This document shows, in pieces, positions 8,698 through 38,780 of a stretch of DNA of 64,000 nt. The translations under genes were made by a program, and so were the position numbers. Below the pieces are notes generated by a model, which was not told where the DNA came from, searched no databases, and was given only the letters and a program-made list of their open reading frames with translations. Position 1 is the first letter of the stretch, and every line of letters begins with the position of its first letter. The DNA comes from Shimia sp. SK013 (GTDB lineage Bacteria > Pseudomonadota > Alphaproteobacteria > Rhodobacterales > Rhodobacteraceae). Location: the NCBI RefSeq assembly GCF_001292625.1, contig NZ_LAJH01000008.1, positions 1 through 64,000 of the forward strand. Direction: 5' to 3'.

Positions 8698-9027
8698 TCA
8701 GTTCCTCTCGTCTCTTTCAGCGACCTCGGCCGCTTGTTTCTCTTCGATCTCTTTGGCGGTGCGCATCATAACGTTGATACCCGCGGCAAGACCAAACAAT
8801 GTGAACAGCACCATGAAGATCGGGAGTGTCCCGAACACGCTGTCCAGCGCATATCCGATGCCAAAACCGATCCCGAGACCGGCTACCATTTCTACCACCA
8901 TGCGCCACGCCTGATTGGCGCCCGAATAGTGCTCATCAGCGCGGGGTTTGGGGTCCTGGGCCTTTTTGGCCGCCTCGATCCGCTCCTCAAGACGCTGCAT
9001 TTGGTCTTTTTGGCCCGGCTCGGTCAC
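8698..9027 (-). CDS. atpI: AtpI/AtpZ family ATP synthase accessory protein
   Basis: A 109-residue membrane protein at the head of the F0 operon. Family members help c-ring assembly or act as a small cation channel. A charged N-terminal helix ([15 protein letters not shown]) precedes two membrane helices: one Gly-rich ([20 protein letters not shown]) and one [21 protein letters not shown] chose GTG at 9027, because the GGAGG upstream lies 10 bases from it but only 4 from an in-frame TTG at 9033; an ATG at 9000 is also possible. The operon promoter should be in 9028-9353. Confidence 0.88.
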
Positions 9028-9353
9028 GCGCAAAATCCCTCCGCTGACGATGGCGTAGTGCTATTGCGGCAAAGGGAATGAGTCAATGACATTGATCGGA
9101 CAGGAAGACGCAGCTTAACTGCCTGTTTTGACGCAATAAATTATCAAAATTAGACGTCGCAGGCCAAGACCGACCACTACCCGCGCGCTGAATCTGCAGC
9201 CTTTCGCTTATTCAACGATTTGGTTGAGTTTTGCACGATTACCACAGGAGCGCGCCATGGCCTCGCCTACGGTTCCCCTAGCCGCCACACTGTGCCACTC
9301 TCTGCCGCATCCTGTTACGAGCCGCGCGCTCCGCGCCAACCGAGACTGTTTTG
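9028..9353. other. Intergenic region with presumed F0 operon promoter
   Basis: This 326-base region lies between divergent genes, atpI (-) and the secreted-protein gene (+). An AT-rich patch around 9126-9150 contains the inverted arms TTTTGA (9126-9131) and TCAAAA (9144-9149), a plausible regulatory site. I could not assign a convincing -35/-10 pair on either strand. Short ORFs here lack coding character. Confidence 0.4.
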
Positions 9354-10047
9354 ATGCCTTTTTTGACCCGCCTTCTTGCCGCTGCCTTCTTTTCGCTTTT
9401 GACCCCGCCGCTTCTGGCCGCCACCTACTTCCCTGCGGATACATGGGCCGCGCCCGGTGATACCGAAAACGCGGCCTTTTACGAAGAATGGTATGGCGAT
9501 CGCCTCAAACATATGGATGAACCGATCCTGTCGTCTTCCACGCCCGGCACCGTCATCCGCATCACCCGCCACCCCTCCTTAGCCGCCCCTGCCACGGTGC
9601 GACTGCATCTGACGGACAAGGGCCGCCCTCAGCTGACTTTAAAGAAACTGAAGCTGGATTCTGAAGGCGAGATCGTTGGGCTGACCTAAGCGCAAAAAAA
9701 AGTGGCTCAACCGCGCACAGTGGCAAAGGGTACAGGGATTTCTTGCGCAAATCGCCCCCTTCGACCCTGCCACCCCTGCCATTATTTCAACCGTGACCTC
9801 GCAGAACGGCGACGGCAATCCGGCCGAGGCCCTCTGTATTGATGGCACCACCGTTGTGCTCGAGGTGGTGCTAAACGGCCAATACCGCGCCCTGTCGCGC
9901 CATGATTGCGCACTTGCGGACCCCAACCCGCTGGGCGATCTCTATTTCCTGTTCGACCAACGCTTCCGCGGCAATTTCAACACCGTGACCTACTACGACT
10001 TTGACGAGAACCCGCCTAAACCATTTAAGGACCTGGCGCTCCAGTAG
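9354..10047 (+). pseudogene. Secreted protein of unknown function, frameshifted
   Basis: The first frame (9354-9689) gives a 111-residue protein with a clear signal peptide (MPFLTRLLAAAFFSLLTPPLLA) and stops at TAA 9687-9689 after GEIVGLT. A second frame is open from 9685 to 10047, has no start codon or ribosome site of its own near its beginning, and continues naturally as KRKKKWLNRAQWQRV... to FKDLALQ. Dropping the single T at 9687 turns ACC-TAA-G into ACC-AAG and joins both halves into one protein of about 230 residues. I therefore read it as one gene broken by a +1 frameshift. A sequencing error or +1 recoding at the stop are alternatives. A GCGGTCC/GGACCGC hairpin (10047-10066) follows. 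Confidence 0.65.
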
Positions 10048-36097: not shown

Positions 36098-36907
36098 ATG
36101 GCGCATATCATTGTGGTCGGCAACGAAAAGGGCGGCGCGGGCAAATCCACGCTGTCGATGCACATCGCCACCGCTCTTACGCGGATGGGCCACAAGGTTG
36201 GCGCGCTTGATCTGGACTTGCGCCAGAAAAGCTTTGGCCGCTACGTCGAAAACCGCCTGAAATATGCCAAAGAGCATAGCCTCGACTTGCCCACTCCGGA
36301 CTATCACGATCTGCCGGAAATCGACCCTGCAACGCTGAAGCCCGGCGAAAACATCTATGATCTGCGCCTGTCAGCAGCGGTTGCAACGCTGGAACCTGAC
36401 AGCGACTTCATTCTGATTGATTGCCCGGGTTCGCACACCCGCCTCTCGCAAGTCGCGCACTCGCTGGCGGACACGCTGGTGACACCGTTGAACGACAGCT
36501 TTGTCGACTTTGACCTTCTGGCCCACATCGACGGCGACGCCGACACAATCACCGGCCCGTCTGTGTACTCTGAAATGGTCTGGAGCGCGCGGCAGTTGCG
36601 CGCACAGGCCGGGTTGCAGCCAATCGACTGGATCGTCATGCGCAACCGTATGGGCGCGCAGCAAATGGTCAACAAAGAGAAAATGGGCAAGGCGCTGGAC
36701 AAACTTGCCAAGCGTATCGGCTTTCGTGTGGCGCCGGGCTTTAACGAGCGTGTCATTTTCCGCGAACTCTTCCCGCGCGGCATTACCCTTCTGGATTTGC
36801 GCGACATCGGGGTCAAACAGCTCAACATTTCTAACGTCGCCGCCCGTCAGGAATTGCGCGAACTGATCAAAGCGCTAAACCTTCCCGGCGTTACGCCCGA
36901 CTTCTGA
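36098..36907 (+). CDS. mipZ: Division plane positioning ATPase MipZ
   Basis: A 269-residue ParA/MinD-superfamily ATPase. In alphaproteobacteria MipZ forms a gradient from the ParB-bound poles and blocks FtsZ assembly, so division happens at midcell. The deviant Walker A is KGGAGKST (K11 signature lysine, GKST 15-18), with HIIVVGNEKGGAGKSTL as start, LDLDLRQKSFGRYVENR and FILIDCPGSHTRLS as Walker B region. WIVMRNRMG is typical of MipZ. The ATG at 36098 is preferred over 36065. It is 9 bases before the exosortase gene, probably in the same transcript. Confidence 0.94.
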   Translation: MAHIIVVGNEKGGAGKSTLSMHIATALTRMGHKVGALDLDLRQKSFGRYVENRLKYAKEHSLDLPTPDYHDLPEIDPATLKPGENIYDLRLSAAVATLEPDSDFILIDCPGSHTRLSQVAHSLADTLVTPLNDSFVDFDLLAHIDGDADTITGPSVYSEMVWSARQLRAQAGLQPIDWIVMRNRMGAQQMVNKEKMGKALDKLAKRIGFRVAPGFNERVIFRELFPRGITLLDLRDIGVKQLNISNVAARQELRELIKALNLPGVTPDF

Positions 36908-36916
36908 CCCGATCAG

Positions 36917-38494
36917 ATGAGTGTGCCAACGGCCATAAAACCAATGCGGAACCGCCTGACGATCATGGCAGGCATCGCAGTGGCAGAGCTTCTGGCCGTG
37001 ATTATCACCTATCAGGTCATAGCCTCCATCGAATGCCGTCAGACCGAGATCGAGGCCGCTTGTCGCGCGCTTCGGTCAATGACCGCCCGAGGTCTCGCGG
37101 TGATAACGGTTCTGGCGCTTTTTTTCTGGCTGCGCCCCCGCGCCTATCTAGCGTTGCGCGAGGCAACCCAATCCGCCCCCGGCCCGCACATTTGGCTGAC
37201 GTTGCATGGTTTTGGGTTGGCGCTGATCTTTCTGCCCTTGCCGCTTTTTGGGGCCACTGAGATTTCGCACCGGTTTCTGCCAACACTCTTGATGATGACC
37301 GCTGGCGGCACGCTCGCCGCACTGGGCGCGCTGCTTTGGATTACACCTGCGCGCCAATGGTGGCGCTGGCTGCAATCCCAAAGCTATTTCCTGCCCGTGG
37401 CCCTGCTTGGCGCCGTCATCGTGCCCGATCTGGCGGATCTGATGCGCCCCTTGTGGAACATCGCGGATCTGTCGAGTCTGACCTTCTTTCTGGTGTTTCT
37501 GGTGCTGTCGGCCATGGGCGTAGACGTCGGTGTAGATCCTGCAAGTTATGTGATCGGCTATGATGATTTTTTCGTGCAGATCGCCAGCCAATGCTCCGGT
37601 GTCGAAGGCATTGCGCTGATCACCATCTTCATGGGGCTTTATGCGATGTTGATGAAGGCCGACCTGCGCATGCGCCGCTTCTGGCTCGCGCTTTTTCCGC
37701 TGGCAGTGCTGTGCAGTTGGTTCTTTAACATTTTGCGCATCGCGATCCTGATCGTGATTGGCGCCGAAGTGTCTGCGGAACAAGCGCTCAACGGGTTTCA
37801 TTCCTACGCAGGCTGGCTGATGTTCACAGCCCTCGCCCTTGGTGTTGTCGCCGTGGCTCACCAATGGGCCTGGCTGCACCGCACGCCCCGTGACCGTAAC
37901 GACCTGCCAAGACTGGCTGAAGAAGGCTTAGCAGCCCTGATTGTGCCGTTTATCGTGATGATGATCACTGGCGTCGTAGCATCCGCTTTCTGGCCCACCC
38001 CGTCGGACGCCTACCCGTTTCGCGCCGTTGCGATGCTGTGTGTGCTACTTTACTTTCGCCCCGCCCTTGTCCGCCTTGTGCAACGCCCCGAAGCGCTCGC
38101 CGTACTTGCAGGCATCGCGGTCGGCGCGCTCTGGCTGATCACTGCGCCAGTGACCCAACCACAGGCAACCGCGCCTTCGACGGCATGGATTGCCTTTCGT
38201 CTACTGGGCACCATCGCTTTGGTGCCAGTGATCGAAGAGTTGTTTTTCCGGGGCTATCTTCAGCGACGCCTGATGCGCGGCGGGCTGATCTGGGTGGTTT
38301 TGGCGCTTTTGCTGCCGAACCTGTTGTTTGGACTGCTACACGAACGCTATCTCGCAGGCATGCTTGCGGGCGTGGTCTTTGGTTTGCTTGCGTTGCGAAA
38401 ACCGGGGCTTACAAACGCAATCGCGGCCCATGGGGCCGCGAACGCTGTGATTGCAGTCTATGCGTTGATCACCGCCAATTGGGCGCTGATCTAA
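36917..38494 (+). CDS. xrtE: Exosortase E / CPBP protease fusion (VPEID-CTERM system)
   Basis: A 525-residue integral membrane protein with two fused domains. The N-terminal exosortase half has the catalytic set Cys226 (SQCSGVEG), Arg274 (FNILRIAIL) and His295 (NGFHSYAGW). The C-terminal half is a CPBP/CAAX-protease-like domain with E440-E441 and R445 (EELFFRGYLQRR), H475 (LLHERY) and H505...N509 (HGAAN). Exosortases act as transpeptidases that cut C-terminal sorting tails; this fusion matches the named family exosortase E/protease of the VPEID-CTERM system. The predicted substrate gene lies convergently 4 bases away. It follows mipZ by 9 bases. What the extra protease cuts is unknown. Confidence 0.93.
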   Translation: MSVPTAIKPMRNRLTIMAGIAVAELLAVIITYQVIASIECRQTEIEAACRALRSMTARGLAVITVLALFFWLRPRAYLALREATQSAPGPHIWLTLHGFGLALIFLPLPLFGATEISHRFLPTLLMMTAGGTLAALGALLWITPARQWWRWLQSQSYFLPVALLGAVIVPDLADLMRPLWNIADLSSLTFFLVFLVLSAMGVDVGVDPASYVIGYDDFFVQIASQCSGVEGIALITIFMGLYAMLMKADLRMRRFWLALFPLAVLCSWFFNILRIAILIVIGAEVSAEQALNGFHSYAGWLMFTALALGVVAVAHQWAWLHRTPRDRNDLPRLAEEGLAALIVPFIVMMITGVVASAFWPTPSDAYPFRAVAMLCVLLYFRPALVRLVQRPEALAVLAGIAVGALWLITAPVTQPQATAPSTAWIAFRLLGTIALVPVIEELFFRGYLQRRLMRGGLIWVVLALLLPNLLFGLLHERYLAGMLAGVVFGLLALRKPGLTNAIAAHGAANAVIAVYALITANWALI

Positions 38495-38498
38495 ACGA

Positions 38499-38780
38499 TC
38501 AATCCGCCTTGTTGCGGCGGCGGCGCAGTTCCCAAACCAACACCAATGTGGCCAAAACAGCCGCCATTGCCAAAAGGCCGGCACCTGCGTCAATCTCGGG
38601 CACAGCGTTGGAGGACCCACTTGTCGAGCCACCGGTTGAGCTGCCCGTGTTGCCGCCAAACCAACGCCACCACCAGTTGCTGCGCCAACCGCCACTGTCC
38701 TGAGCCAAGGCCGATGTCGCCGTCATCAGTGTCGCGCTTACAGACATCAACGCCAGATTGGTTGTCGTTTTCAAACCCAT
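38499..38780 (-). CDS. VPEID-CTERM sorting-signal protein, substrate of exosortase E
   Basis: A 93-residue exported protein. Signal peptide residues 1-26 (ending ATSALA), then a Trp/Gly/Ser-rich segment (GGWRSNWWWRWFGGNTG, five Trp), the sorting motif VPEID at residues 60-64, a membrane helix (GLLAMAAVLATLVLVW) and a basic tail (RRRRNK). This tripartite end is the PEP-CTERM-like signal cut by exosortases. The mature product would be only about 33 residues plus any part of the motif. The start at 38780 has GAGAGGG about 6 bases upstream. It converges on the exosortase E gene. Confidence 0.92.
   Translation of the reverse strand: MGLKTTTNLALMSVSATLMTATSALAQDSGGWRSNWWWRWFGGNTGSSTGGSTSGSSNAVPEIDAGAGLLAMAAVLATLVLVWELRRRRNKAD

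Follow-up and report, generated by a model that had tools for sequence, protein, structure and literature searches.

Exosortase/PEP-CTERM (EpsH/XrtA) systems often have twenty or more targets, according to the available excerpt of one account (PMC3237569), and, in the accessible portion of another, a signal peptide is ascribed to exosortase targets (PMC12188702). Fusions of EpsH with CAAX-type proteins were noted in 2006 and left unexplained in the text available (PMC1569441), and dedicated systems with one target were in print in 2011 (PMC3237569, in excerpt). Where rhombosortase/GlyGly-CTERM genomes have a single target, enzyme and sole target tend to adjoin (available text of PMC3237569), as in the pair described here; unlike that pair, they use a rhomboid serine protease and a different tail motif. 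MrtJ/JDVT-CTERM and MrtX/MYXO-CTERM resemble the pair in having a CPBP-family enzyme for C-terminally tagged proteins, and MrtJ with a single JDVT-CTERM protein forms a two-gene neighbourhood, as far as the accessible text goes (PMC11980579). Myxosortase MrtX differs from it in the invariant Cys of the MYXO-CTERM motif, which the VPEID motif lacks, and neither the MrtJ nor the MrtX system has an exosortase domain. The closest working parallel is AgrB and MroQ acting on AgrD, in which one short precursor is served by a CPBP protease together with a membrane Cys protease (PMC10482373, in the part available); those enzymes are encoded by separate genes together with a receptor kinase, and the likeness claimed is one of working, not of homology.

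The pair in Shimia sp. SK013 belongs to the NCBIfam families of exosortase E/VPEID-CTERM (TIGR04162/TIGR04161), since both genes exceed the curated cut-offs, and at the family level no difference was found. The literature search returned no paper on the VPEID-CTERM family, the matches to 'VPEID' looking unrelated in the excerpts seen. The earlier note's 'not described', said of what the added protease cuts and of why mipZ is 9 bases upstream, needs qualifying: the family is named in NCBIfam, and both the EpsH/CAAX fusions (PMC1569441) and dedicated systems (PMC3237569) were in print, on the evidence of the text available. What the present analysis adds to TIGR04162/TIGR04161 is the size of the cargo, precursors without a leader, an acidic residue at tail position 25, an adhesin-associated clade and counts per genome. 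No description of the short cargo, the precursors without a leader, the acidic tail residue or the clade with the adhesin turned up in the literature searched, a body outside which the 2012 exosortase survey (Haft et al.) lay. The pair appears to form a cassette of two genes whose enzyme, a membrane protein with two protease domains, processes and exports a single, very short Trp-rich peptide rather than the many full-size proteins that such enzymes usually handle.

Within the window, the 64,000-nucleotide stretch that was analysed, xrtE occupies 36917..38494 on the plus strand and encodes an exosortase E/protease fusion of 525 aa that matches TIGR04162 with 583 bits (cut-off 150) over residues 18-525 and profile positions 3-516 of 516, and is thus full-length. 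The exosortase (EpsH) domain covers residues 56-315 (37082..37861; PF09721 63.9 bits, cut-off 25.7) and contains C226, R274 and H295. It is followed by a CPBP/Rce1-like glutamic protease domain at residues 423-511 (38183..38449; PF02517 55.4 bits, cut-off 22.4), in which the motifs EExxxR (E440/E441/R445), FxxxH (F471/H475) and HxxxN (H505/N509) are all present, so that the fusion of an exosortase to an intact CPBP protease, first read from the open reading frame, is borne out by both profiles. The three exosortase residues are identical in 34/34 and 64/64 aligned XrtE sequences, two overlapping sets, and the same holds for E440, E441, R445, H475, H505 and N509. An AlphaFold model of XrtE was confident (mean pLDDT 91.7, pTM 0.80); Foldseek retrieved no solved structure resembling it at E <= 0.001, and a profile search found no PDB sequence at E <= 10. 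The nearest named relative is Shimia sp. Alg240-R146, whose XrtE is 98% identical. Two further cysteines outside the active site, C40 (37034-37036) and C49 (37061-37063), are identical in 64/64 sequences; they lie in a loop that is likely outside and possibly form a disulfide.

Convergent with xrtE, its stop 4 bases away, is a gene on the minus strand for the VPEID-CTERM peptide precursor of 93 aa (38499..38780; ATG at 38780, stop at 38499-38501). Its arrangement and its VPEID, helix and RRRR ending are as given in the earlier note, and the protein matches TIGR04161 with 49 bits (cut-off 33; 51 bits in the whole-genome search); a Pfam scan found no family matching it. A signal-peptide-like start, predicted from the sequence and a home-made rule, comprises residues 1-26 (38703..38780) and ends in ALA before Q27. 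The predicted mature peptide, residues 27-59 (38604..38702), lies between this likely signal peptide and VPEID and reads QDSGGWRSNWWWRWFGGNTGSSTGGSTSGSSNA in Shimia sp. SK013, where about 17 residues form a Trp-rich head and a flexible linker of Gly, Ser, Thr and Asn follows. The sorting tail, residues 60-93 (38502..38603, with the TIGR04161 match at 38514-38603), consists of VPEID, a conserved helix, E84 and RRRR within the terminal RRRRNKAD, and has the tripartite build (motif, helix, basic cluster) that is also seen in exosortase/PEP-CTERM targets.

The pairing was followed through related genomes. The tail gene lies within the examined flanks of 75 of the 80 named XrtE loci, being downstream and convergent in 70, upstream on the same strand in 2, upstream and divergent in 2 and downstream on the same strand in 1; the median gap for 73 convergent tail hits is 37 bases, a figure that includes two loci with wrong values (L119 and L153). 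The genome of Shimia sp. SK013 itself (28 contigs, 4.05 Mb) has one exosortase by genome search and one VPEID tail over the cut-off, the next best match having E 1.57 and 11.9 bits, in contrast to the many targets per enzyme of exosortase/PEP-CTERM systems. A TIGR04161 count was begun with 50 of the 80 named loci and covered 49 genomes (L115 left out); at E <= 0.001, one tail was found in 48 and two in Leisingera sp. SS27, where they lie near contig ends and are alike, not identical. The count of tails per exosortase E proposed in the earlier note thus upholds the dedicated pair, and the many further VPEID proteins in the same genome that would have spoken against it did not appear.

Samples chosen by taxonomy gave a similar result. 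XrtE exceeded the cut-off in 34 of 295 genomes of the family sample, and a tail at E <= 1e-4 was present in 31 of these 34 versus 2 of the 261 genomes lacking XrtE; a single tail is present in 29 of the 31, while tandem copies number two in G216 and four in G027. The three XrtE genomes without a tail at this threshold (G141, G007 and G017) were searched again with a wider tail alignment, which found six VPEV tails in G141, one beside XrtE in G007 and no strong tail in G017, as well as three in G345, a genome outside the family. In the class sample XrtE exceeded the cut-off in 4 of 385 genomes, one of them G345. Within the genus Shimia (n=25), the same 14 genomes have XrtE and one VPEID tail and the other 11 have neither. 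The one-to-one pairing with short cargo is well documented, and both genes are lost or absent together. Because the VPEID gene is under purifying selection and the two genes share their presence in 14 of 25 Shimia genomes, the pair is not a matter of chance.

Several loci stand apart from this pattern. In G141 (L093, 4309-16590), XrtE is accompanied by five VPEV-tailed larger proteins, and a sixth lies elsewhere, making this a many-target exosortase E; the frames that carry the tails are 203-539 aa long. VPEI-type peptide genes occur in two genomes without XrtE over the cut-off, G048 (L096) and G134 (L097). In Roseovarius gaetbuli (L119, 10001-11596), xrtE has an in-frame stop after 378 codons beside an intact adjoining peptide gene, which may reflect either a broken gene or a sequence error. 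A record named Nocardioides marinus, an actinobacterium (L135), contains this XrtE pair; the contig concerned recurs in the family sample (G238), and the assembly is likely mislabelled or contaminated.

The cargo between signal peptide and VPE spans about 5-40 residues and is mostly an aromatic head followed by a Gly/Ser/Thr linker. Median predicted mature lengths are 30 for 59 precursors with a signal peptide, 23 for 24 leaderless precursors and 13 for 11 precursors of the adhesin clade (range 6-20), values that depend on the home-made signal-peptide rule, whose cuts are visibly misplaced in, for example, L104, L136, L142, L154 and L165. The smallest substrate is about 54 residues long, and the cargo of G345 is possibly five residues (ISGGS). 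At least three W, F or Y residues are present in 44/59, 23/24 and 0/11 predicted peptides of the three groups, respectively. The aromatic residues are in front and Gly/Ser/Thr behind: in the leaderless peptides the share of W is 14.6% over the first 14 residues and 0.9% beyond them.

Of the 80 named loci, 22 (from Roseovarius, Marivita, Natronohydrobacter and others) have leaderless precursors, in which about 20-32 residues precede the tail, and examples of their starts are MWNWFF, MFDWFW and MSWLDRIRIFYGGG. In eight of these loci (L125, L128, L137, L161, L166, L167, L172 and L179) no more than 28 codons separate the preceding stop from the tail, leaving no room for a signal peptide. The window precursor, by its sequence, does carry the signal peptide expected of an exosortase target; the eight loci lack it. 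On the XrtE tree, the 21 leaderless rows correspond to five state changes, at least four of them forced by branches with SH-aLRT >=95, as counted by a quick method that does not give the direction of change. In its leaderless precursors, and with no EPS locus showing in the window, the family differs from exosortase/PEP-CTERM systems, whose targets have a signal peptide in the published text available (PMC12188702). The L103 row in the tree was translated in the wrong frame (164 aa, end branch 10) and its position was not used. Neither the tree nor A2 includes L119, with its in-frame stop, or L153, with a misplaced start (6 aa), the organism of L153 being represented in the tree by L067. In the locus L149, on the same contig as L071, three tandem leaderless VPEI precursors lie beside one XrtE (9011-9994 on the minus-strand scale); their heads differ, and two of the three have a Cys pair.

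Among 94 distinct tails scoring at least 40 with our own profile, which are not independent of one another, 28 positions align without gaps, P2 and E3 being present in 94, V1 in 91, G9 in 90, A12 and A14 in 92 each and A18 in 89. An acidic residue occupies position 25 in 93 of 94 tails (E in 90 and D in 3), the exception having A there. The profile derives from 36 family-sample tails and is biased toward similar ones, and TIGR04161 served as an independent check. V1, P2, E3, A12, W24 and E25 are common to nine aligned tails, five of them from G141. No Cys is among the common residues of positions 1-28 in the 94 tails, in contrast to the invariant Cys of the MrtX-type motif. The helices of ordinary PEP-CTERM tails are expected to be less conserved.

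The placement of the two active sites was approached by positive-inside counting, with mean loop charges over 64 XrtE sequences. Loops 73-91, 143-157, 246-253, 380-392 and 495-498 count as inside and loops 200-228, 285-295 and 409-421 as outside, and from residue 229 onward the charges alternate cleanly, so that C226, R274 and H295 would be placed outside. Helices 158-175 and 183-199 are out of step with this alternation, and the topology of XrtE therefore stays an inferred one. By the same charge count, the CPBP site probably lies within the membrane and may open to either face: E440 and E441 are near the inner end of helix 422-452, H505 and N509 are in the inner half of helix 499-519, and in helix 457-473 it is the outer end to which H475 is near.

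The reading that we favour, and to which we give about an even chance of being right, is of a self-contained two-gene module that matures one short peptide by an exosortase cut at VPE on the outside and a CPBP cut of the leftover helix, yielding a surface product. The precursor would reach the inner membrane with its N-terminus outside, in Shimia by means of a signal peptide; several relatives would manage without a leader, and there the basic tail may drive N-out insertion. On the outer face the exosortase half would then cut, or transfer, at the VPE motif, releasing or attaching the short peptide, after which the CPBP half would cut the leftover helix inside the membrane, possibly near acidic position 25. 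The aromatic peptide would stay at the surface or leave it. Such a CPBP cut would explain why both the sequence and the length of the helix are conserved as far as the acidic residue before the Arg cluster. Two cuts on the precursor are likely; the cuts, their order, the membrane faces and any attachment of the peptide are inferred. A fuller claim is possible and distinctly more tentative, falling short of an even chance: that this is an exosortase system with cargo of about 5-40 residues and several independent losses of the signal peptide, and that a sortase-like Cys site and an intramembrane glutamic site in one polypeptide cut the single substrate at the two ends of its helix, with the second cut set by acidic position 25.

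Alternatively, the pair could be an ordinary dedicated exosortase that sorts a small surface protein in the manner of PEP-CTERM, with the CPBP domain as a helper that makes no cut of its own on the substrate. The family bears the exosortase name (TIGR04162), the window precursor has a signal peptide, dedicated one-target sorting is in print (PMC3237569, in excerpt) and a catalytically dispensable CPBP protein, SpdC, is known from the accessible part of PMC10482373. However, an inactive helper would have no need of the six CPBP motif residues that are identical in 34/34 and 64/64 sequences, and cargo of 6-20 residues in one clade, together with leaderless precursors, is unlike an ordinary cargo protein. 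We consider this alternative rather unlikely, although it fares best among those weighed.

The resemblance to AgrB and MroQ acting on AgrD in Staphylococcus raises the question of whether the two membrane proteases mature a secreted pheromone. The same two kinds of enzyme act there on one short precursor, in the available text (PMC10482373); the mature parts here are very short, two Cys are present in 8/59, 2/24 and 6/11 of the signal-peptide, leaderless and adhesin-clade peptides, respectively, and L149 has three tandem variants. Selection tells a different story, since six related Shimia loci (L106-L111) gave dN/dS values of 0.19 (signal peptide), 0.13 (head), 0.08 (linker) and 0.09 (tail); the head is thus constrained rather than diversifying, and the gene is real. 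Nor do the loci share a receptor or regulator family, the largest neighbour cluster after xrtE reaching 7 of 34 loci (up to about 8 kb examined on each side), and no Agr-type receptor kinase or regulator was found among the window neighbours scanned by profile. A peptide signal is therefore improbable.

It is also very improbable that the peptide is antimicrobial or acts on membranes, the CPBP domain then serving in processing or self-protection. Trp accounts for 11.5% of residues in the signal-peptide group and 8.9% in the leaderless group, and CPBP proteins include bacteriocin immunity proteins such as SkkI, in the portion of PMC10482373 available. The peptides nevertheless have few charges, K being 0.4% and R 1.9% of leaderless residues, and purifying selection and the lack of an immunity or export gene common to the 34 loci point the same way. 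In its few charges the leaderless VPEID cargo is unlike cationic Trp-rich peptides. A hypervariable pheromone or bacteriocin was likewise lowered in standing, because all regions of the VPEID gene are under purifying selection in Shimia.

If the cassette is instead a self-contained module that matures one short surface peptide, its neighbours elsewhere may bear on where the product acts. Among 123 loci, 14 (L081, L082, L084-L092, L097, L164 and L183) have a large SdrD_B/cadherin/Big_9 protein next to a very short VPEIS/VPEID peptide gene; XrtE is present as well in all except L097, a three-gene arrangement of one clade. The adhesin queries came from 8 of these 14 loci, the independent hits being L082, L084, L086, L088, L164 and L183, and L164 is from the same organism as the query locus L081. 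Five adhesins were scanned, four beside XrtE and one beside the orphan peptide gene of G134; all match SdrD_B and Big_9, at least three also match cadherin-type domains, and some have a thioester-domain match. On the XrtE tree, 12 adhesin rows fall in one 13-row branch (SH-aLRT 91; 2 changes). The peptides of this clade are the shortest and have no Trp (two W in 0/11), which leaves one function shared by all the cargo unproven.

Relatives of Wzz were found in 5 and of sugar transferases in 6 of 123 loci, query loci L097 and L230 included, and the orphan VPEIS gene of G134 (L097) lies with adhesin, Wzz, glycosyltransferase-like and flippase-like genes. Five EPS-type proteins, taken as queries from two related loci, found no homologue in the window, and by those queries the EPS genes that mark an exosortase/PEP-CTERM locus are absent from it. 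As the Wzz, sugar-transferase and adhesin counts have no background rate and the window has none of these genes, they are a hint only of a role at the surface or in the matrix, which would be in line with known exosortases as portrayed in the accessible text of PMC12188702. That the product acts at the cell surface, in matrix or adhesion, is a guess.

Directly upstream in the window is mipZ (PF09140 MipZ 390.3 bits, cut-off 20.7), which ends at 36907, 9 bases ahead of the xrtE ATG, a position to which the earlier note drew attention. mipZ adjoins xrtE in 15 of 80 named loci, some with short flanks, and in 3 of 34 family-sample loci, all forming one 18-row branch of the XrtE tree (SH-aLRT 94). 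The gene is present in all 25 Shimia genomes, and in three of those without the pair (G676, G681 and G683) it is followed directly by marR and then hmgA, marking the site without both genes; the other 8 of the 11 have other arrangements or no recognisable neighbour within the 1.5 kb examined. Elsewhere the neighbours, presumably, to go by sequence likeness, are ribosomal-protein and fusA-like genes or transporter-like genes. Thus xrtE and the VPEID gene move as a unit and mipZ is a bystander; as a functional partner it was rejected, being confined to 15 of 80 named loci and one clade, with mipZ and marR side by side in three Shimia genomes where the pair is missing. A link to cell division is scarcely credible, since the tight spacing of 3-24 bases in 15/15 named loci with mipZ adjoining makes co-transcription likely there but is limited to 15 of 80 named loci and one clade with three more, while 11 of the 25 Shimia genomes have mipZ without the pair and the cassette lies beside other genes elsewhere. 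From the earlier reading as a whole, then, the dedicated pair is retained and a meaningful link to mipZ finds no support; the very short cargo had no place in it.

Exosortase biochemistry is hard, partly because there are usually many large and variable targets per enzyme. With one enzyme and one short substrate, the whole processing could be traced by mass spectrometry, and the two active sites are separable by point mutations. The module could show what CPBP proteases do when they are fused to exosortases, and it could show whether exosortase targets manage without a signal peptide.
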